Assembly: GCA_026075535.2 (NCBI GenBank)
Contig: AP026545.1
Location: forward strand, 7,936,001-8,000,000
Direction of reading: 5' to 3'
Length of the DNA: 64,000 nt
From: Tricholoma matsutake
Lineage: Eukaryota > Basidiomycota > Agaricomycetes > Agaricales > Tricholomataceae
Positions 19,447 to 32,835 of the stretch are shown here, one piece after another. Both the position numbers and the translations under genes were made by a program. Each line of letters begins with the position of its first letter. The stretch's first letter is position 1. The notes below the pieces were generated by a model. That model was not told the DNA's origin. It ran no database searches and worked only from the letters and a program-made list of their open reading frames with translations.

Positions 19447-20609
19447 TCGAGACCCAAAATATTGGTAGTTGCCCATGACTTCAAATATCCATCACGAAGC
19501 AAGTTATCAAGGAAGCAAACGACAACACAAGCAAGGGACAACTATTCTATGAGGTGTTCTTCCTGCCGCCAAACCCATCCACACCAGCGCTCCCTGAAAA
19601 CACCAGATACCCAATGTAAGGGGACTAGGGGGGTGCCCTGTGATTTCCCTTTGCTAGAGGCTTAGGTTGCCCTTATACCCAATGCCAAAATGGAGTTTTG
19701 TCAACATCACCGATTAACAGATCCATCAAGCAATCAGAAAGATGAAACCATACAAGGCTATGAGGAAAGGAACAGTACCAAACAGTGTCTTCATAAATGC
19801 ACACAAAATCCTCATCCCGCACCTAGGCCCTCTCTTCTGAGCAACACACACACTCAAATACTACCCAAAAAACAGAAATGCTAGTCATGAAAAAACTGAG
19901 TAAACCAGACTACACAGTACCCTTGGCGTGGCACCCCATAGTCCTCTCGGATGGCATGGCATGGCTGCTAAATAGCTGCCAAACAGAAGATATTGTGGTA
20001 ATGTGCAAGAAACACAACATGTTGCCAGCCAATCACTTTGGAGCATGCCCAGGCCACACAACAACTGACTCTATCCACCTCCTAACAAAAACAGTCAAGG
20101 ACACATGGCGAAGAGGACAGGTAGCATCTGCCCTATTCCTAGACATCAAAGGAGCCTTCCCCAGCATTAACACTAACCGACTAATCCACAACATGAGGAA
20201 ACGAGGAATACCAAGCAAATACACAGACTGGATGCAGCACCGACTACAAAACAGAAAGACATTGATCATCTTCAATAATCACCATGCAGCACACTTCACT
20301 GTCACAAATGGCCTAGACCAAGGGGACCACTTCTCAGGGATTTGTTACCTAATATACAACACCAACATACTGAAAATCCCAATACTCAAACTAGGGGAGT
20401 GGATACTATTGTTTGTGGATGATGCAGCAGTAATCATAATTGGGAAAGACTTCTTGGAGTCACATGAGTAAATACACAACATCATGGAGAGAATAGGAGG
20501 AATTCTAGAATGGGCAAAACTCCACAACTGCGAATTCAGTATTGAAAAATTCCAACTATTAGACATGTCCAAACAAACAATCCCTCATGCCTTCCTCCTC
20601 AGAAAGCGA
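19447..20609 (+). pseudogene. LINE copy B, left half (linker and reverse transcriptase)
   Basis: Homologous to copy A: KQVIKEANDNTSKGQLFYEV, then RYPMPKWSFVNITD after removal of the 59-base insert, PHLGPLF, and the open frame 19878-20471 with ANHFGACPGHTTTDSIHLL, ALFLDIKGAFPSI, LDQGDHFSGICYL and LLFVDDAAVII. Stops include a TGA where copy A supports another residue and a TAA at 20469. The protein is cut at ...LLRKR (20609) by a large inverted-repeat element and resumes with VPLPRSDLTIG at 30962. Confidence 0.88.
19617..19675. mobile_element. 59-bp inverted-repeat mini-insertion with 9-base duplication
   Basis: TAAGGG at the left and CCCTTA at the right, flanked by the perfect duplication TACCCAATG (19608-19616, 19676-19684). 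Taking out 68 bases restores the LINE protein ...TRYPMPKWSFVNI in frame, matching YRYPPPRWTFQNI in copy A. A 9-base duplication fits Mutator-like elements, but the termini are too short to classify. Confidence 0.85.
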
Positions 20610-21209
20610 CATCAGGAAAATCACTTTTTGACACAAGCTTTCCCAGGGTTAAAGGCTATTTCCCAGGACACATCAAGCACCCTAGAGTACTGTGTGATGC
20701 CCTGTGATGCCCTGTATGATAATGTATCATAATCACACTTCTCAGCATTTCAACCATGTAATTTTTAAATCAATTTTACAACATTCTACAAGTAGATTAT
20801 ATTAACTAACATGACAGCAATTACATTAAATAGTTATTGGTCCAGTGTCATCGAGCCCCTCATCTTTGAGCCTCAGCAACCATTGGGGTGCTATATTGAT
20901 GTACATGTTACCGAGTTTTGGTGTAGAAAAGGGTGTCAGTTGCATAGTTGAGAGAGAAATTTTCCCAATTCAATTTTGGCAGATGCCAACTGTTGTAACT
21001 TTTTGTTTGAGAAAGCTAATCAATGTTGACAATGACATGGCAACAGTCTTCTGACAAGCAAGTGCTGAATGTACAGTGTCGACGGTGATGTTGACAACAC
21101 AGAATAGAGGCAGAACTGAGATGAATTGCTGATGTATGCAGGTGGAACCATCATGGTGGTGGGGACATTTTTTCATAATTTGAGGCAGTGCTCGCATTCA
21201 TGGGGCTTG

Positions 21210-21427
21210 TGTAATCATGCTGATTACCAATGTTGTTTCATGCTTGGCCATTGCTCGTCACATATACTGATGTCTACAGACTCTCTCTCGATTCCTTCTT
21301 CCCCCAGATCTATTCTCCCATACTTCCTATTGTATGCCTCCCACATCTGCTTTCCTCTTATAATATCTGGTCCTATTCTGCCTTGGTGTTTCTGAGTGAA
21401 TCTTACTGCTTACTGGGTACGATCACA
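21210..21427 (+). repeat. 5' LTR of Gypsy-2
   Basis: 218 bases, ends TGTAATC...GATCACA. Differences from the 3' copy (CCAA/CTAA, TCGATT/TCTATT, CACATC/CATATC) are almost all transitions. Confidence 0.9.
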
Positions 21428-21507
21428 CTTTTTTTTTGAATACAGACCAGACCACTCTGTATCACTGCTAAAATCCTGCCATTACACTGCACAGCCCCAT
21501 TAAACAT

Positions 21508-22942
21508 TTGTTCATACTGCCCAATCTGACGTCTAAAGCTTCAACGACTGCTCCGCCCTGTACGAATCCACGGCCAGCGCAAAGTACCAGATCTGCACCT
21601 GTAACCCCTGCCGTTCCAACTGCACAGAAGAGACACTCGCCATTGACTGCATCTCTGCCACATCTTTCTCCTATTCCGTCTTCCCCACTGTCTAATCCCA
21701 CACCATCACCACCTAGTACTCCTGCTCCAACTGCACAAATAAATGCGCATATAGCTGCCCCCGCCCCTTATGACTCAGACTCTTCCTCTGATTATGAATA
21801 TCCATGTTTCTCTAAAATGTCGAACACCACCAATGCTTTCTTCCCCCTTGCTGAATGTGAACAGATTCACTCATCGAAGTCTCCCATCTTGACTGCTGGT
21901 GACGTCTCACTGAGTCCTTCAATCATTCAAACTTATGTGTCTTGATTACTTCACAGAAAAGAATGTGCCTGATGTAGAACAAGTGCGAAAGATCCTTGGG
22001 TGCTTCAGGGACAACCACATCTGGGACTGGGTGCGAGGAGATCATGCTCGTCTCCTCAAACTGACATTCGACAAGTTCATGGCTGAACTTCGAGATGGCT
22101 ATCTTGCCTCCGATTGGGTTGACACCATCCACCTTGAGCTGCTTTCCTTGACTCTCACGACCTGCCCTGCTGGCAGCACATTCTGGGATTATTTCAACCA
22201 CATGCAGTCACTCAACTCACTGCTTGTCGACACCTTGTCCTTCCAGAAGGAAAAAGATTTTTGTCAGAAGGTAGAAGCGGGCCTTGATGCAGAACTCACC
22301 CAGAAGTGCCACAATAAGGCATGCCAGGACATTGTTCCCCTCTGTGCCTGGGCACAGGCTGTCAAAACAATTGATGATATGCATCATGCGGACCACATAC
22401 GCACACGTCAAGTCACAGCCGAGTTGCTGAGGGAGCAAAAACGAGGCTGAGATGAGAATGATGATAGCTACAACAACTCTAAATGCTGCCGATCACAATA
22501 CCCCTCTGCTGGTACATCTGCAGCCCCTTTGGGCGCCCCCAACACCTTGACAACATCGACCACGACCCATGCAAGCCTCACTCCTCTGACTAAAGAAGAA
22601 AAGGATGAGCTGGATGCAAAAGACAGCTGCAGGAAATGCCGCCGTATATATGCGTGTCACCATTCTGCAGAGTGTCTGTATGGATTCCCTATTGCATCCT
22701 CCTACTGTGGTCTCATAGACAACTGCACCACTGCTGCTCCCCCAACCACAAACCCCACTCCTGCCACGAATGCAAATGCAACTCAGCAAGGAGTAACACA
22801 CCCTGTGGCTGCTTTTGGATCATGGGCAGCTGAACAAGCCACTTTTGGCAATGGTGCCTCATCAGTGCTGGGGAACGGATCTGAAAGTGAGGAAGATGAT
22901 GATGACATGGTATGTGCTCCTTTTAAATGTTGTCACCTGTGA
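21508..22942 (+). pseudogene. Gypsy-2 gag
   Basis: A proline- and serine-rich N-terminus (21508-21945, frame 1) passes by a one-base shift into frame 2 at about 21935. The capsid-like segment there includes VRKILGCFRDNHIWDWVRGD and FMAELRDGYLASDWVDTIHL. After a TGA at 22448 the frame continues to a zinc-knuckle variant (CRKCRRIYACHHSAEC, about 22627-22675). A TGA at 22940 ends this part. The long unstructured N-terminus is typical of chromovirus gag in mushrooms. Confidence 0.75.
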
Positions 22943-22984
22943 TGGCAGGGAAAAATTGAAGGTCCCAATGAACCGTTACCCTTA

Positions 22985-23368
22985 TTGTCTCCAATGCTCC
23001 TGGACTGTGGTGCTCACCTGGTACTTATTGATACAGAATTAGTAACAAAGCTGGGACTCCACTGCCGCCACCTGCCTGAACCTGAACTTGTTGATGTCAC
23101 CTTCAAGAATGCCGAAATGACTGAGAAATTGATGCTGACTGAATGGGTGAAGCTCACTGTGACCGCTGTAGATGGCGAATGGACTTCACAAACTGTATGC
23201 GCTCTTGTCACCCCGAATCTCTGTGCACCTGTCATTCTCAGACTACTGTCTTTGGTATGGAATAATATTGTAACCGATTACACTGCCTGTACATGTGTTG
23301 ATACAAAAAATAACTATGACTTGCTGAATCCGGTACTGCATACTGCAAAGAAACCGAAACGTCCATGA
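22985..23368 (+). pseudogene. Gypsy-2 aspartic protease
   Basis: The active-site region reads PMLLDCGAHLVLIDTELVTK, i.e. D-C-G in place of the common D-S/T-G, followed by the second block CAPVILRLLSLVWNNIVTDY (ILGLPFL.HN-like). The aspartate is kept, and the Cys variant is known in Ty3 relatives. It ends in a TGA at 23366 in the pol frame. Confidence 0.75.
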
Positions 23369-23380
23369 CTTTGCGAACAG

Positions 23381-24970
23381 GTGCAACAGACGAAGACCAA
23401 CCGTAAACTGATGTTGGATGAATTAAAATTTGTACTGCAAAGCTGGCTGCATCTACTAAGCTTTGATGTCATGAAACCGGTTGACATGGCAGCTGCTATA
23501 ACCACCCGTATCAAAGTGCTCTCTCACATTGCTGAACTGATGCACCATGAAGATTCACTGAAAGCTGAGTACCACGAGCTGTTTGAACCAATCCCACATG
23601 CAGAAGACTTGCCAACTAACGTCTTAGCCAGAATTCACCTGAAGCAAGCTGACCAGGTAATAAAAACGCGAATTTACCAATGTCCACGCAAATTTTGTGA
23701 GGCATGGGGAACATTGTTGAAAAAGCATCTGGATGCAGGAAGAATCCACCTGTCTGCATCATTGTGGGCTTCACCAGCATTCATCATCCCTAAAGCTGAT
23801 GCTTCTGTACTTCCTCAATGGGTCAATGATTTCCATCAGCTGAATTCCAATACCGTGATTGACTCCCACCCTCTACCTCATGTTGACAACATCTTGAATG
23901 ACTGCGCAAAAGGTAAGATCTGGGCTACCATTGATATGACGGATAGCTTTTTCCAAACACAAATGCATCCCAACGACATCCATCTCACTGCGGTCTCCAC
24001 ACCTTTTGGCCTTTACGAGTGGCTGGTAATGCCAATGGGACTATGCAACACCCCAGCTATCCACCAATGACGGGTCACAGTGGCGCTTAGAGAACACATC
24101 AGGAAAATCTGTCACGTCTACCTGGACGACATCGTGATCTGGTTGCAAACTATTGAGGAGCATCACCATAATGTCCATCTGATCCTGAATGCGCTGCACA
24201 CAGTGAAGCTGTACTGCAATCCAAAGAAAACACACCTCTACTGTAGTTCTATTGATTTCCTTGGTCACCACATCTCACCGGATGGTATCAAACCAGACAA
24301 CAGCAAAGTAGAGAAGATCACAAATTGGCCAAGGCCTAGAAGCGCAACTGATGTTCACTGTTTTCTAGGACTGGTGTGATATCTAGCAGCATTCTTGCCA
24401 GACTTGGCGACACATACTTTGGTCCTTACACCACTTACGACTGCCCAAGCTACATGCTGCTTCCCCACCTGGGGTGCAGATCACCAGCTCACGTTTGAAG
24501 CGATCAAGTCGATTGTGGTAAGTCATGACTGTCTAATGACAATTGACCACAAAGATCCCAAAGGTAAAATATTCGTAACGACGGATGCCAGTGATTTCCG
24601 GTCTGGAGCTGTTCTTTCCTTTGGAAAAACTTGGGAATCTGCTAGACCAGTGGCATTTGACTCAATGACATTCAAAGGTGCAGAACTTAATTATCCCATT
24701 CACAAAAAGGAAATGTTGGCTATCATTCGCCTGCTAAAAAAATGGGGCACAGATCTTTTTGGCTCTGCATTCACAGTTTTCACTGACCATAAGACTCTTG
24801 AAAACTTTGAGAACCAGCATGACTTGTCATGCCACCAAGCACACTGGATGGAATTCTTGTCACAATTCGATGCAAAAATAGTTTACATTAAGGGTGAAGA
24901 CAACTCTGTGGCCGATGCGCTTTCCCATCTCCCAACAATCACTGCTGCTGACAGTTCGGCCACCTTGCAT
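23381..24970 (+). pseudogene. Gypsy-2 reverse transcriptase and RNase H
   Basis: One frame with TGA stops at 24068 (HQ-stop-RV) and 24377 (LGLV-stop-YLAAFLP), both where arginine is expected. Motifs seen: TRIYQCPRKFCEAWGTLLKK, SPAFIIPKAD, TPFGLYEWLVMPMGL, VYLDDIVIW (catalytic), FLGHHISPDGI, then RNase H FVTTDASDFRSGAVLSF and TVFTDHKTLENF. Catalytic aspartates are intact, so apart from the stops the enzyme looks recently functional. Confidence 0.9.
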
Positions 24971-26596
24971 GCAGCCCATGCACCATATGAATTCTGCCCA
25001 TACGATGACAAACTGTGCTCCGTGAATGTAATACTGCCAGCTGCATGTGGCTCTCCATTGCAATCTGCCCACTGCCTGGCACTCGCTTTGCTAGCAAAAT
25101 GCAGCAGTGTTGCAGCAACACTGAATATCATGACCCACCCTGAGCTGAAAAAAAGCATTGTCGATGGCTACGTGCATGACTCCTGGTGCAAGAAATTAGT
25201 AACTGCCACACCCAGAATGCTGATCATGCAAGAGATAGACGATCTGTGGCTCATTGGTGAGCGACTGGTGGTTCCGTCCATACCCGGATTGAGAGAAGCG
25301 CTGTTCAGGCTTGCTCACAATTCTCTCAGACATTTTGGGTTCGAAAAATCTTACGGTTCACTGAGAAATTCATATTACTGGCCAAACATGAGACAAGACC
25401 TCAAACAAGCATATGTACCTAGCTGTGCTGACTGCCAGCGCAACAAGTCGAGAACAACATTGCCTGCTGGACCGCTACACCCCCTACTGATTCCTGATGG
25501 TTGCAGGGACTCTGTAGCCTTGGACTTCATTGGTCCTCTACCCGAGAATGATGGATTCAATTGTATACTAACAATGACTGACTGTTTAGGTGCTGATGTA
25601 CAGATCATGCCAACACATACTGACTTTACCACCGAACAAGTGGCAGAAATTTTTTTCGACCATTGGTACTGTGAAAACGGACTACCACTGGAAATAGTGT
25701 CTGACCATGACAAGCTGTTTGTGTCAAAATTCTGGAGTGTGCTTCACAAACTGTCTGGCATCAAACTAAGAATGTCTTCTCCATACCACCCGCAAACCGA
25801 CAGATCCAGTGAATGTTCAAACAAAACTGTGAATCAGGCACTCTGTTACCATGTTGCTCATAATCAAAAGGGATGGGCATGCGCATTGCCATGGGTGCAT
25901 TTTGATTTGATGAACACCATGAATAAATCAACAGGTTTTTCACCATTCCAACTCAGGATGGGGCAAAGCCCTAGATTGATTCCACCTCTCGTGATGCCGA
26001 TTCTGACAGAAATTGCTGAATATGTACTTGCCTGTGAACTGATTGCCCATCTGCAAGAAGATGTCTGTGAGGCTCAGGATAACCTGCTAAAAGCAAAGGT
26101 CACACAGGCCACATTTGCAAACACGTCGCACGGTCCTGACCTGAAGCTGGACATAGGAGACAGGGTGATGCTGTCAACTGAAAACAGATGCAGGGAATAC
26201 ACCATGAAGGGTGAGAAACACGTAGCTAAATTTATGCCTAGGATCAACGGACCTTACTACATCATTGATGTCAACCAACAAAAATCTACGATCACCCTGG
26301 ATTTTCCTCAAGCATCGAAACAGTTCCCGACATTCCACACAAGTGAGGTAATGCCGTATAATGAAAACAACTGTACTCTGTTCCCCGACCGCGAGCTTGC
26401 GAGGCCTGGTGCAATCATTATGGAGAATGGTGCAGAAGAATACTACATTGAGAAGATCATCGATGCTCGCAAGCAAGGAAGGGGTATGCAATATTTGGTA
26501 AGGTGGGTTGGTTATGGTGCTGAGGACGACACTTGGCTCCCTGGATTGGAACTCATCAATAATGCCGCATTGGATGACTGGCAGGCAGTGCAATAA
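24971..26596 (+). pseudogene. Gypsy-2 integrase and chromodomain
   Basis: The last part of an uninterrupted 733-codon frame (24395-26596). The HHCC head includes HNSLRHFGFEKSYGSLRNSY and CADCQRNKS. The core has LDFIGPLPENDGF, SDHDKLFVSKFW and HPQTDRSSECSNK, giving D, D and E. The tail carries a GPF/Y-like part (RINGPYYIIDVNQQ), then a chromodomain (YYIEKIIDARKQGRGMQYLV, RWVGYGAEDDTWLP). The chromodomain probably binds methylated histone H3. Confidence 0.92.
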
Positions 26597-26745
26597 GGAG
26601 GGTCCATTGTTCATTTCAACCTTCTTCATGTTTCTCCCACCAGTAGCTTTTCCCACTGGGTTTTTAACACACCCGGCGAGCAGTTTTTACGATACCTTGG
26701 TATATTTTTTTTATTTACCTGGGAATTTTTCAGAGGAGGGGAGGG

Positions 26746-26963
26746 TGTAATCATGCTGATTACTAATGTTGTTTTGTGCTTGGCCATCGCTCGTCACATA
26801 TACTGATGTCTACAGACTCTCTCTCTATTCCTTCTTCCCCCAGATCTATTCTCCCATACTTCCTATTGTATGCCTCCCATATCTGCTTTCCTCTTATAAT
26901 ATCTGGTCCTATTCTGCCTTGGTGTTTCTGAGTGAATCTTACTGCTTACTGGGTACGATTAGA
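26746..26963 (+). repeat. 3' LTR of Gypsy-2
   Basis: 218 bases, TGTAATC...GATTAGA, directly after a polypurine tract (about 26731-26745) and followed by the duplication GCTTG. Confidence 0.9.
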
Positions 26964-27289
26964 GCTTGTAGCTGTAAGTTCTCATAGAAATGCCTTTTGA
27001 GGGCCTGAATTTGAGCTTGCAGTTGATTTGCAGAGGTGTCAAGGGTTGGCAGAACTTGAGGATCAGTCTTTTCTCCAGGGACATGTCTCATATCAATTTT
27101 ATCTTCTTCTTATGTGTGCAGGGATACTTGATATCAATGATGAGGTCATCTTCTTCATCTGAGGAGTTGTCGATATCTTGATCCCAGGCTAAATCTAAGT
27201 CGTCAGAGTCATTGTCAATGTTGTCCACATCAAATTTGTTCCTAAGGTTACCTAGCATGCTGGTGATTGATGGGGCCATGGTGACCATT

Positions 27290-28138
27290 TAAAGTAATTA
27301 GTCATTAATCAGAACAAGAATGATGAAAAAGAAAAAACTTACCTCAAGTCAAAATGACACAACTCGTTCAACTGCACAAGAGAATTCCTCTTTGGACAGA
27401 TCCATAATAATCAAAGGGGATGAAACAATTTGTTCCCTGAGGTTTCTCTTGTCCAGTGTTAGTTGGTACTGGACTTTCATCATAATGATTTCTGTTTGTG
27501 TATCCAGATCTGATGACACAGGAGATACAGTGGGAGATAGCGCAGATGTTTCATGGGCAGCAAGTGATGCAAGTGTTGAAATACTAGACAGTCTGGGATA
27601 TACTTAATCACTTCTGAACATGTTTCCTGGAGGAATGGCATGAGGCCCAGCACACCCATGCAAAAGGTTTAAATAAATAGCAAGCACCATGATCCCGCCA
27701 AAGCCAAAAAGAAAACTATGACAGCAGTACAACATGAGCACTAACAAGTCATGATGACACAAAGTCAGACCCATTGAGAAGTAAGTTACCCAGGCTCAAA
27801 TTCAAGTTGTAAATATATGTCGATGCACCCATGGGGCGCAACATTCCCATGGGTTGTTCATGTGACCAATCGTTGATATCAAGTCACACTGAAGTTGAAC
27901 TTCACAAGTTGAACATGGGCCAACTGCTACCAGCACCTCCCACCTCCATCAGCAGCTGCCAATGCTGCTCCCATGCTGCTCCATCAACAGTAAACGGTGA
28001 CCTGCATGGCTTCAAAATTGCTGCGTCATGCAGACATCAACAGCATAAACAGCCATTGATTCATCTTGAGGAGCCTGAGGCCCCTCAACACAAAGTAAAT
28101 TAAGTGTTTTCAATGTTCTTTTCTTTATTTTTCAAGTT
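27290..28138. other. Interior of the inverted-repeat element, mostly unassigned
   Basis: The part 27330-27610, read on the minus strand, is coding-like (LASLAAHETSALSPTVSPV, SLDTQTEIIMM-type sequence, then a GTAAGT donor at about 27342) and may be an upstream exon of the unknown gene. From 27620 to 28138 I see only a local palindrome (CCCATG...CATGGG, 27827-27852) and no recognised gene. Confidence 0.35.
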
Positions 28139-28840
28139 CTAATGGTCTTGTTCAGTTATTTTTAGGTTATCTACTACCACAACAATGCACAATGCAGACA
28201 CATGCTCACCCCCTCCTCTCTGTCCAAATGGGATGTAGGGGGGTTGTTTGGGGTTAAGAGACCCCATTGAGGCTGGATAGCAGGGTGCCTGTGAGGTAAG
28301 CACACAAAATGCCCTTAACCCCACCACCTTGTCACTAACCACCTCACACCTCAAAAAAAAATGAAACACTGCCACAACAATGGCAGGATGGGGTGACAGG
28401 ACCCATAACCAAAGAGGCATCCCCCAACAACTGCCGCTATGAGCCTCTGCTCATAGGGTGGGATCAGGGGTGCTAATGACAATGACAACATGAATAGAAT
28501 GATGACAATGGAGTGGGAGATGACAGAATGATGAGATGACTGGAGTCGAGGGCCCATGAGACATTGTTTGATGTCTCTTGGGCCATTGGTAAGTTTTTTT
28601 ATTACTCTTGTTTCATTATTTTGCTGCTAACAATTTTTTTTAGCAACAAAGCCGACCAGCACCCACCACCGTTGTGAGCCCCTGCTCGCAAGGTGGATTG
28701 TGGGTGCTCAACAATGAACCAACAATGACAGGGGACAACAATGACATGGGAGAGGACCTACAACAAAGCACACCACCAACCCCCAGCCTCATGAGGGGTG
28801 GATCATGTGTGGACCAACAATGACAACGACTGAGGGGGAC
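28139..28840. repeat. Hairpin-bearing repeat region (copy II)
   Basis: Matches copy I (15428-17152) in composition and in the hairpin unit: TATGAGC-CTCT-GCTCATA followed by GGGTGGGAT at 28436-28465, TGTGAGC-CCCT-GCTCGCA followed by AGGTGGAT at 28673-28697, and a stem-less remnant with GGGGTGGATCATG at 28796. It also contains an intron-like segment at 28589-28643. Confidence 0.65.
28589..28643 (+). other. Intron-like segment in the repeat
   Basis: GTAAGT donor, GCTAAC branch-type motif and TTTTTTTTAG acceptor within 55 bases, the usual size of introns in this genome. A decayed equivalent lies in copy I near 16079-16125 (TACTAAC retained, ends lost). The flanking exons encode nothing I recognise. 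Confidence 0.4.
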
Positions 28841-29668
28841 AGGAGTGAAGGTAGGTGAGAGGGAGGGGGGAAATGACAAGAGGGAGGGGGGACAATGACA
28901 AGAGGGAGGGGAAACAATGATGAGAGGGAGGGGGGACAATGATGAGAGGGAGGGGAAACAACAACAAGAGGGAGGGGGGACAACAATGACAAGAGGGAGG
29001 GGAGACAACAATGATGAGAGGGAGGGGAGACAGTGACGACAAGAGGGAGGGGAGATGATGACAATGAGAGGGCAGGAAGATGATGATGAGATGGAGGGGA
29101 GAGGGAGGGGGGACAACAATCAGATGGAGGGGGGACAACAATCAGATGGAGGGGGGACAACAATCAGATGGAGGGGGGACAACAATCAGATGGAGGGGGG
29201 ACAACAATCAGATGGAGGGGGGACAACAATCAGATGGAGGGGGGACAACAATCAGATGGAGGGGGGACAACAATCAGATGTGAGAGGGAGGGGGGATGAT
29301 GATGAGAGGGATGGGAGACAACAACGAGAGGGAGGGGGGACAACAAAGATGAGAGGGAGGGGAGACAACAAAGATGAGAGGGAGGGGAGACAACAATGAG
29401 AGGGAGGGGGGACAACAAAGATGAGAGGGAGGGGAGACAACAACAATGAGAGGGAGGGGAGACAACAACAATGAGAGGGAGGGGAGACAACAACAATGAG
29501 AGGGAGGGGAGACAATGATGACAAGAGGGAGAGGAGATGATGACGAGAGGGAGGGGAGATGACAATGAGAGGGAGGGGAGATGATGATGAGAGGGAGGGG
29601 AGAGGGAGGGGGGACAACAATCAGATGGAGGGGAGACAACAATAAACAATGAGAGGGAGGGGGACAAT
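28841..29668 (+). repeat. GA-rich minisatellite array
   Basis: Tandem units built on GAGAGGGAGGGGAGACAACAA in several lengths. At about 29105-29280 there are eight near-perfect 22-base units containing GGAGGGGGG and ACAACAATCAGAT. The long ORFs across it on both strands are products of repetition, not genes. G-runs spaced by short loops could form quadruplexes. Confidence 0.92.
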
Positions 29669-29676
29669 AATGAGAG

Positions 29677-30517
29677 TAGTGTTTTTAAGGTTTGGTCCGG
29701 TCCAGTTTTTCAACCTCTAAGAGGGTTAACCGGTCTAGACCAGTACCCCAAGTCAGTTGGACCATAACCAAACTGATTAGGACCAGTCCTAATTGGTTCA
29801 GTCTACCAGTTTAGACTGGTTTCAACCGGTTTTTGACTCTAAATAAATTTGTCGTATATAAAAGACTAAAAGAAAAAGAATGAGATAATAAAAATAGCCC
29901 CACAATCTTGCTTTTGTAGCAAGGGTGGGGGTCGTTGTCCTGTGCCGTTTACCCCCTGCAATGAGGCATGGACATCTTTTTCAGCAAATTTCTATCAAAT
30001 ATCATGAAAAATAACAGTAAAAAATGCAGGGGTACTTTTTGATGACATTGTGGGAAAAACCCCCCATGATGAGATGCAAACATCTTTTTCAGTAATTTCC
30101 TCTCAAATATCATAAAAAATAACAGTAAAAATGCAGGGGTACTTTTTAATCAGGGAAAACCTGCACCTCATGGTGACATGACTCATGGGTTTACCCCTGT
30201 GATGAGGTGTGGACATTGAACCATGTACAATTACTGTAACATATATAAACCCCACCAATTCTCATGACATCTCCCCTCATAGTTAGTCTCTTGTATATAA
30301 TATGTACATTAGTTCATATGTAATGCAAAAAGACCAGTTGTAACCAGTTCAAACCAGTTTTACAATGGTTTTTGTATGTTTCCAAAACAAGTGAACTGTT
30401 AACCAAACCGATGGTTTTGATTAATAATTTTTTCAGAAAAATTGCATGGACCAAACCATGGACTGCAGTTCAGTCCGGTTTAGTCTTCAGTCCTATGGAC
30501 TGAACCTTTAAACACTA
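29677..30517 (+). mobile_element. hAT-like non-autonomous element C (841 bp)
   Basis: Termini TAGTGTTTTTAAGGTTTGGT and (right, reverse complement) TAGTGTTTAAAGGTTCAGTC. Flanking AATGAGAG at 29669-29676 and 30518-30525 is a perfect 8-base duplication, although the same octamer recurs in the surrounding array. The interior has CCGGT/ACCAGT repeats and two related segments around 29990 and 30090 (TTTTTCAG...ATGCAGGGGTACTTTTT). No ORF. Confidence 0.85.
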
Positions 30518-30620
30518 AATGAGAGGGAGGGGATGATGAAGAGAGGGGGGATGACAACAAGGGGGGGGGACAATGACACCACCATCATGGACACCAACAG
30601 ACAAATGGGAACTGTATATG

Positions 30621-30662
30621 TAGTGTAGTTACATATCAAATAGTGTAGTTACATATCAAATA
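30621..30662 (+). repeat. 20-bp tandem duplication
   Basis: Two adjacent copies of TAGTGTAGTTACATATCAAA inside the right arm of the inverted-repeat element. Confidence 0.9.
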
Positions 30663-30959
30663 CATGTATTATATAGGAAATGCAATAATATTTTTATATC
30701 ATATGCAGTGTGAATGACATTTAGAGGACCAAAAAATCTTCTCAAGCATCAGAGGATATCCAGGAAACATATGAATCATACATTCCTGAGGTGCCCTGGA
30801 GCACTTTGGACCAAAATTCACTACCCTGAAGACTGGCAAATAATGGCACTTTATCTACAGAGTGCCCAGGGTAGACAATTGCTTTGGATGCCTTGGCATG
30901 CCCCAAGACATCCTAGGGTAACCCAGGACACCCTGGGAACAAAAGCAATTTTCCTGATG

Positions 30960-32835
30960 GAGTCCCACTACCACGAAGTGACCTCACAATAGGACAACAC
31001 TGCATCAAATCAGCAGCAACTGCCAAGTTCCTAGGTGTATACCTAGACAACAGGCTCACATGGAGAGTGCAGGGAATGGCAGCCCTAGCCAAGGGGCAAG
31101 ACTGGATGGTACAGTTTGGGCAACTATCAAGAACATCACAGGGAGTAACAGCAAAACACATACAATGCCTATATCTATCAATCATCGTACCACAAATGCT
31201 ATATGCAGCTGACATTTTCCTCACCCCCCAACATAAAGCTGCCATGAGCACTCAGGGAAGGAAGAACACAAGCAGCATCATCAACAGACTGGCCAGAATA
31301 CAATGACAAGCAGCCATCATGATAATGGGAGCAATGAGAACAACAGCAACCAATGTGCTAGATGCCATGGCCAACCTACTCCCTTTTCATTTACTAGTTG
31401 ACAAATATTGATACAGGGCTACCCTACGACTAGCAACACTACTGATCAGTCACCCACTACACAAGCCAGTAGCAAATGCAGCACACAAACTGATCAAGCG
31501 ACACCCCACACTGATACACATCTTACTACATACATACAACATAAAACCAGAAAAACTCGAAATGATAAGCACAGTCAGACAAGACACCAAATGGAAACCA
31601 AACTTCAAAACCCAAATTGCAAACACAAAAGAGGAAGCAATGGAAGAAGAGGAGAGGGACAGAGCAGATGTGAAGGTATACATGGATGGATCAGGGATGG
31701 AGGGAAAGATAGGAGTGGGAGTGGTGTTATATTGAAGAGGAGTAGAGAAGGCAAGGATGAGATACAGACTGGGAACCCAGGGACAACACACTGTATATGA
31801 AGGGGAGTGCACAGGGATGCTAATGGGAGTGAAGCTGATAGCAAAGGAGTGGAATGTGAGAATGGTGACCATCTGCATCGACAGCCAAGCAACCATCAAG
31901 GTGACCCAACTAACCAAACCAGCATCAGGGCACTACATCATCAACATGTTCCATCGGGAATTCAAGGCACTGCAAAGGAAACAGAGGGGGCTGAAACTCA
32001 CGATCAGGTGGACCCCAGGGCACAAAGACATAATGGGGAATGAGTGAGCAAACAAGGAGGCAAAGAGGGCAGTCACAGATGGCAGCAGCCAGGACACTGA
32101 CCTACCACAATTACTGAGAAAGGAGCTCCCACACAGCAAAGCAGCAAAGAAACAGGCATACAACAAGAAACTCAATGCTCAAGCGCAAAAGGAGTGGACC
32201 AAGTCACCAAGATACACATGCATGAAAAGAACAATCCCAACAGCACCATCAAAGAAATATCTTACACTCATGGAGCCCCTCCCTCAAAAACACACCAGCA
32301 CCCTCACACAGTTACAAACCAGCACACGCGCAGCTAGCAAAACACCTACACCGCATTGGAAAAACCAACTCCACAATATGCCCCAGCTGCCAACAACACA
32401 ATGAAACAGTCATACACTACCTTTTGCTATGCCCAGCACACCAAGAAGCATGGAATGTGATGAAGAGAAAAATAGGGGGCCTCACACAAGATATCACCAA
32501 ACTACTAAACACACCCAAAGCATTACCCACACTGTTTCAGTACATCACAACGACCGCATGCTTCTGAGCTACTTTCAGGGAGTTTACAAACCTCACGGGA
32601 ACATAACATGTGATGGACACGCCTATGCCTATGCCTACCCTTGCACCTCACAATACCCTACTCCCAGTCTACGAACCACTTATTCCAGCACTACATGTGC
32701 TCTGAAGACCACTACTCTTAAGCAGTTGCTGCAGCCACCACAAAACATACAATTCAAACACTAGTAGATACGCAATGTGTACATACTCTCTGACATATGG
32801 TTTGCCACAACGGAGAATAAATAGGAATAAAATTA
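30960..32835 (+). pseudogene. LINE copy B, right half (RT end, RNase H, CCHC, 3' end)
   Basis: Begins in frame with the left half (VPLPRSDLTIG, FLGVYLDNRLTW), then LYAADIFLTPQHK and RNase H (VYMDGSGMEGKIGVGVVLY, YEGECTG, ICIDSQATI, WTPGHKDIMGNE). In-frame TGA codons at about 31303, 31409, 31735 and 32045 all replace arginine when compared with copy A. The CCHC tail (CPSCQQ-type) is shifted near 32390. The 3' end AGAATAAATAGGAATAAAAT matches that of copy A. Catalytic residues survive, so decay is mainly by stops. Confidence 0.88.

Follow-up and report, generated by a model that had tools for sequence, protein, structure and literature searches.

Which kind of mobile element interrupts a retrotransposon in this part of the Tricholoma matsutake genome, and what is the gene-like sequence inside it? 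The stretch in question, called the window throughout, is 64,000 nt long (C8:7936001-8000000; coordinates without a contig name refer to it), and the genome searched comprises 161,040,721 bases in 13 contigs. A preliminary description had recognized an element with inverted ends that splits a long interspersed nuclear element (LINE) and carries an unknown gene, and had taken it for a DNA transposon with a duplication of 2-3 bases. As the best overall explanation, we conclude that the element is very probably a non-autonomous DNA transposon of the PlavakaB type with a cargo interior, the term non-autonomous being used because the element contains no transposase; the unknown gene descends from the spliced RNA of a host nuclease gene.

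Ends, target site and copies of the element

The element spans 20610-30959, has inverted CATCAGGAAAAT ends and lies in a LINE, as delimited by the following features.

20610-20621, plus strand: left 12-bp terminal inverted repeat (TIR) CATCAGGAAAAT, exact, by sequence match
30948-30959, minus strand: right 12-bp TIR CATCAGGAAAAT, exact, by sequence match
20608-20609: left copy of the 2-bp target site duplication (TSD) GA, a single GA at the empty LINE site
30960-30961: right copy of the 2-bp TSD GA, by flank comparison
20610-20778, plus strand: left terminal region, common to copies with another interior (L021, L022; query positions 1-169, 89-90%)
30752-30959, minus strand: right terminal region (208 nt), common to those other interior types that were read at the right end (L021, L022, L071, L072)
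19827-20609, plus strand: 5' part of the LINE reverse-transcriptase frame, which contains a stop at 20469-20471 (RVT_1 domain)
30962-31306, plus strand: 3' part of the LINE, continuing the frame of the 5' part over a single GA (joined-flank translation)

The structural part of the preliminary description was borne out: the subterminal blocks TTTT, TTCCCAGGGT and ACCCTAG stand in identical order at the left and right ends, the duplication is one of 2 bp, and removal of two nested insertions leaves 3742 bp, where about 3.7 kb had been estimated. A third exact CATCAGGAAAAT, at 24097-24108, was considered as a further element end and dropped; it is apparently a coincidence, because it lies inside the pol frame of a nested long terminal repeat (LTR) retrotransposon.

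The upstream LINE part encodes RVT_1 (E=8.9e-15), and joining the flanks at a single GA restores LRKRVPLPRSD in frame. The preliminary description had asked whether the two halves might come from different LINE copies. The joined flanks (240 bases) matched two uninterrupted LINEs, at C7:2642049-2642282 (93%) and C5:10043548-10043781 (91%), in each case over positions 1-234 and through the junction, at which neither copy has added or lost a single base; the halves are thus one LINE copy, split by the insertion. The LINE frame already has the stop at 20469-20471, so the interrupted LINE was not a clean gene anyway.

Searches of the genome with the element's ends returned 40 matches to the left end (40 of 100 first-look candidates scored) and 42 to the right end (40 of 98 first-look candidates scored). 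The combined end and subterminal pattern CATCAGGAAAATN{5,25}CCCAGGGT gave 59 + 59 matches genome-wide, compared with 0 + 0 for the reversed pattern; the bare 12-mer gave 303 + 314, compared with 1 + 4 for its reverse, counts that may be raised by pol sequences from copies of the LTR element. We fetched 20 loci, a subset of the copies, and examined 21 loci with the window. Thirteen copies had both ends, as the transposon reading of the preliminary description had led one to expect, and 12 of these 13, the window counted, had identical 2-bp flanks; only L013 had flanks that match at 3 bp too. For L017, L019 and L020, which are self-nested, this count leaves out the outer pairings, and the 13 copies are partly non-independent, with common flanks in L011/L012 and in L017/L019/L020. 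In the latter three, one member of the family is inserted into another, and because the insertion point is the same and the flanks are identical they look like segmental duplicates.

At least three interiors occur between ends of similar sequence, namely the FEN1-like type described below, that of L021 and L022, and that of L071 and L072, together with one mosaic. L021, L022 and L024 share 11-13% of the window copy's 3742 bp, and the interior of L024 matches partly L021/L022 and partly L071/L072, as if it had arisen by recombination between two family members. L071 (4010 bp) and L072 (4074 bp) differ from the window element in left subterminal sequence and interior, have the TSD TT in both copies read, and are 93% and 88% identical to it, respectively, over the 208-nt right terminal region. 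They belong to a sister subfamily whose members measure about 4.0-4.2 kb and have the right end of the window element and a variant left end (TTACTTTCTGACCCAG...); further pairs of this subfamily lie, for example, at C1:5152097-5156321 and C6:6860197-6864374; no gene was recognized by eye in L071 or L072. Near the family copy in L026, positions 509-1372 of the oriented locus hold two adjacent long frames that resemble, by eye, a tyrosine-recombinase-type retroelement; Pfam had no match to a short piece of them.

Probable Plavaka affiliation and the proposed source of transposase

The comparison with the CMC, Plavaka and KDZ groups proposed in the preliminary description placed the element with PlavakaB. 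In the sections of Kojima (2025; PMC12730594) used here, PlavakaB elements are given the termini 5'-CATCA..TGATG-3' and 2- or 3-bp TSDs, and the window element has both, its 2-bp duplication being borne out by the empty LINE site as well as by the 12 copies with identical flanks. Its CATCA ends and 2-bp TSD do not agree with the CAC..GTG termini and 3-bp TSD of EnSpm/CACTA elements, nor with the TSDs of the KDZ group (7 bp in Kyakuja, 8 bp in Zisupton; PMC12730594). The kinship with CACTA elements that had been suspected therefore holds only broadly, inasmuch as Plavaka transposases are described in the same sections as recognizably similar to those of EnSpm.

As the preliminary description had found, no transposase was seen: there was no Plavaka match in the window or in L009-L028 among the matches listed, and none by eye in their frames. 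The Plavaka Pfam model gave 167 matches in the genome (123 of 786 first-look candidates scored), and we compared the first 100 of 118 end places by eye with the Plavaka matches listed, which yielded three neighbours with 9-13 kb from end to Plavaka match. One of the three led to an element with family ends that encloses a Plavaka match, at C5:10230123-10242776. Its left end is 83% identical to that of the window element over 58 bases and its right end 81% over 179 bases, it is flanked by TC on both sides, and near its left end it contains the stop-free Plavaka match (C5:10231630-10232316, E=2.7e-79). Two other Plavaka-bearing elements, at C1:1911434-1918542 (TSD CA) and C1:11431219-11440911 (TSD GA, two matches inside among those listed), have only the outer 12-13 bases in common with the window element, and a frame in L048 also matches the Plavaka model (1.3e-27). 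We had also considered C12:7019049 (L047) as an autonomous partner, as its left end is that of the family and a Plavaka match lies 5 kb downstream; it was ruled out, since the flank at the facing end is TA as opposed to AA and only the outermost 11 bases match the window element.

In our proposal, a Plavaka transposase encoded at another genomic locus would recognize the CATCAGG...CCTGATG ends and move the element by cut-and-paste, reinsertion creating the 2-bp target duplication; we infer that the window element was mobilized in trans by a transposase of the partner's type. Several observations weigh against the PlavakaB assignment and its supply in trans. The exception among the 13 two-ended copies, L018, has a mutated right end and no matching TSD. 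In the C5 partner, two adjoining Plavaka frames (260 and 206 aa) are split by one stop, and the partner, 12.65 kb long, was read at both ends and near the left end, to the exclusion of about 9.6 kb of its interior. The neighbours C3:12514885 and C9:7007625 lack a facing family end as far as they were read, the candidate pair C2:1951222/C2:1967711 has non-matching flanks, and placement in clade B would follow from the termini and the TSD, not from a transposase tree. One might assign the element to another CMC-like lineage (EnSpm/CACTA or Mirage), as TSDs of 2-5 bp and CA..TG ends are widespread in the CMCT clade (PMC12730594, sections used here). This we consider extremely unlikely, given that CATCA is the published PlavakaB terminus (PMC12730594) and that the C5 element with family ends encloses a Plavaka match.

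The nuclease relic and its decay

What, then, is the unknown gene of the preliminary description? A gene-like piece is indeed present, whose origin had been missed. On the minus strand of the element, the longest copies matched XPG_N weakly, short of the cut-off (E=0.039), and a protein search of the genome led to a relative at C9:5720447-5720897 (locus L042). The gene in L042 is open, with five exons as modelled by eye, a coding sequence (CDS) of 1920 nt and a product of 639 aa that contains XPG_I (9.2e-14, codons 446-528) and XPG_N (1.5e-05). A frame beside it is one that we take to be alpha-COP. Among the best 120 of 290 related proteins (7995 best candidates scored), most relatives are Agaricomycete proteins named 'PIN domain-like', 'exonuclease 1' or 'flap endonuclease 1'. 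With both XPG_N and XPG_I the L042 gene is one of these flap-endonuclease-like proteins, whereas the sequence in the element has neither the XPG_I part nor an open frame. Judged by alignment, the unknown gene is a relic of this host XPG/FEN1-like nuclease gene, and its window copy is the following.

27367-27659, minus strand: nuclease relic, codons 1-25 and 334-406 with the part between deleted and no introns, by alignment to the L042 parent

Relic pieces are present in 16 of the 21 loci; L021/L022 and L071/L072 carry other interiors. The copied region is CDS 1-1218 of 1920 and stops inside exon 4. Homology (blastn) starts at CDS 1 in 12 of the 16 loci (at 3 in L015, 25 in L014, 73 in L010 and 1036 in L027) and ends at CDS 1218 in 10, that is, in every locus holding the 3' part; the remaining six end at 200-201 (five loci) or at 428 (one). 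The deleted form of the window recurs in L016, with the same two pieces, and in L015 (codons 2-25 and 334-406). The three parental introns in this span, of 51, 58 and 52 bp, are gone to the base in the copies aligned (introns 1-3 in L011, L013 and L026, introns 1-2 in L018), and the relic therefore derives from spliced RNA.

Homology alone gives no date for an intron, and the transposon might instead have captured genomic DNA from a host gene that gained its introns later. This would require three separate gains. In a tree, moreover, the five longest element copies formed one group (100/100) within a clade of the host gene and the fungal predicted proteins P0027, P0054 and P0055, with P0027 as sister to the element copies at modest support (85/81); the sequences of P0027 and P0054 seem to run on across the third intron, just past which P0055 begins, and we therefore take this intron to be older than the host species. 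Late intron gain is thus exceedingly improbable, and we retain the origin from RNA. As in Pack-TYPE elements, a host gene fragment lies between TIRs with its parent elsewhere in the genome, and it moved as a unit after capture, since it occurs in 16 loci and relic copies have their own TSDs at several sites (GA, CC, CA), some loci being segmental duplicates; as in processed copies, the introns are exactly absent. We suggest that an ancestral element gained DNA from spliced mRNA of the XPG/FEN1-like gene, from the start codon to CDS 1218, that this cargo block would then have been copied around the genome while decaying, and that the form with the large internal deletion (window copy, L015, L016) would also have spread.

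Could the nuclease piece be a working, or recently working, accessory gene, like the TET/JBP gene proposed as such in other fungal elements? Differences between host and element in the five longest copies are commonest at the third codon position (28-30, 23-25 and 40-44% at the first, second and third positions), the lengths of several shared indels are divisible by three, and the third position also differs most in 8 of 10 pairs of element copies. The host lineage alone could, however, produce the host-element pattern, and between element copies the three positions are far closer (for example 9.0/6.1/10.1 in L010-L013), the third leading by little. Each of the five longest copies contains one or more non-triplet indels, four of them have in-register stops, and the parent's XPG_I region lies beyond the copied part. 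The codon-position pattern is compatible with early constraint and gives little support for maintained function; we regard an accessory gene as very unlikely and the piece as a decaying relic. Changes from host to element lean towards C-to-T and G-to-A (694, against 444 in reverse, as sums over five related copies and with no genome-wide control).

Across the 13 copies, CpG is very low (observed/expected 0.06-0.32) and TpG+CpA raised (1.29-1.55), figures with no host-gene or genome-wide control behind them, as expected from methylation-linked decay. The element has also been altered by later insertions, and it contains an internal repeat array.

21210-26963, plus strand: nested Ty3-type LTR retrotransposon, 218-bp LTRs with 8 differences, TSD GCTTG (21205-21209 and 26964-26968)
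28856-29600: internal tandem repeat array of 22-25-bp units, by repeat analysis
29677-30517: nested 841-bp hAT-like miniature inverted-repeat transposable element (MITE), 8-bp TSD AATGAGAG

The LTR retrotransposon has RNase H, integrase zinc-binding and chromo domains. The MITE, presumably hAT-like on the basis of its 8-bp TSD and of general features, landed adjoining the minisatellite, and its TSD AATGAGAG sits in an array rich in the same word.

Entry of the cargo and its significance

How did the product of a spliced RNA come to lie within a cut-and-paste element? We infer a cDNA route, either by retro-insertion into the element or by repair with cDNA. Next to the relic, on the same strand, lies a second fragment that bears on this question.

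26990-27288, minus strand: retroelement-like, tentatively gag-like, open reading frame fragment downstream of the nuclease relic (C8:7962990-7963091, C8:7963070-7963288)
21124-21209, minus strand: rest of this fragment, cut off by the LTR retrotransposon (C8:7957124-7957213; weak match, E=4.3e-5)

The fragment is related to frames in L063 (42% identity) and L064 (36%). Related open frames occur at C1:819900-824400 (L063), C1:17010443-17010679 and C2:4999000-5003000 (L064). In Pfam the L064 frame matched only DUF4100, below threshold (E=6.7e-4), and the L063 frame had no match; the protein collection returned 12 proteins with uninformative names for L064. The fragment and these frames are possibly of a retroelement gag lineage, and we keep the label gag-like tentative because neither Pfam nor the protein collection settled their identity.

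With respect to cargo entry only, and leaving the rest of our explanation intact, the relic may be a processed pseudogene inserted by retrotransposon machinery and merely amplified by the transposon. It is intronless, and LINE and LTR elements are at hand. The 5' end of the coding sequence is preserved in it and the 3' end is missing, which near a same-strand retroelement-like fragment fits a template jump to host mRNA, and template-switching chimeric retrogenes have been documented in a fungus (PMC2104539, in the part considered here). On the other side, the direct repeats found around the relic in L011, L013 and L014 were short or tandem and none resembled LTRs, and the gap of roughly 90 bp between the relic and the retroelement-like fragment is unassigned sequence. 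Ordinary LINE retrocopies retain the 3' end and not the 5' end. A poly(A) tail is not expected on the relic, because the copy ends at CDS 1218. On balance we give insertion as a processed pseudogene slightly less than an even chance. The retention of the 5' end would be the pattern left by a reverse transcriptase jumping onto an mRNA, unlike the usual 5'-truncated LINE copy. We tentatively propose, as a possible though rather unlikely scenario, that reverse transcriptase jumped from retroelement RNA to the nuclease mRNA and that the chimeric cDNA entered a Plavaka-type element, probably during the repair of the gap left by transposition.

The carrier itself is of a known kind, and what is new here is the cargo. 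PlavakaB elements, in the sections of PMC12730594 used here, resemble the window element in their CATCA..TGATG termini and 2-bp TSD, in their occurrence in Agaricomycotina and in having a known cargo gene (TET/JBP); the window element differs in lacking a transposase and in carrying a broken, intronless fragment of a host nuclease gene. A close and direct precedent is a hAT element that amplified an intronless copy of host histone H3 in Pseudocercospora and relatives, the copies having decayed (PMC6710886, in the part considered here). It too is a fungal TIR transposon, with the differences that it belongs to the hAT superfamily and concerns another host gene in ascomycetes. Pack-TYPE or Pack-TIR elements of plants and animals (PMC8903248 and PMC8277862, as far as considered here) are likewise non-autonomous TIR elements with host gene fragments; the survey in PMC8277862 discarded intronless captures of multi-exon genes, whereas the present capture is intronless. 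We found no report of a Plavaka element with an intronless host gene in the open-access literature, judged mostly by title or abstract.

The locus thus offers a case in which a non-autonomous Plavaka-type element multiplied a host gene fragment that came from RNA, and the known parent, sharp borders, empty sites and a Plavaka-bearing partner are all found in one genome. Together with the hAT/histone H3 case, it suggests that fungal DNA transposons have repeatedly captured genes by way of RNA, and host introns missing between transposon ends would be a simple screen for it. With several interiors and a mosaic between similar ends, the family is useful for studying cargo exchange. If the uptake of a chimeric cDNA is true, fungal cut-and-paste transposons would acquire genes via RNA, with neighbouring retroelements as suppliers, and the family would serve as a chassis with constant ends and exchangeable cargo.

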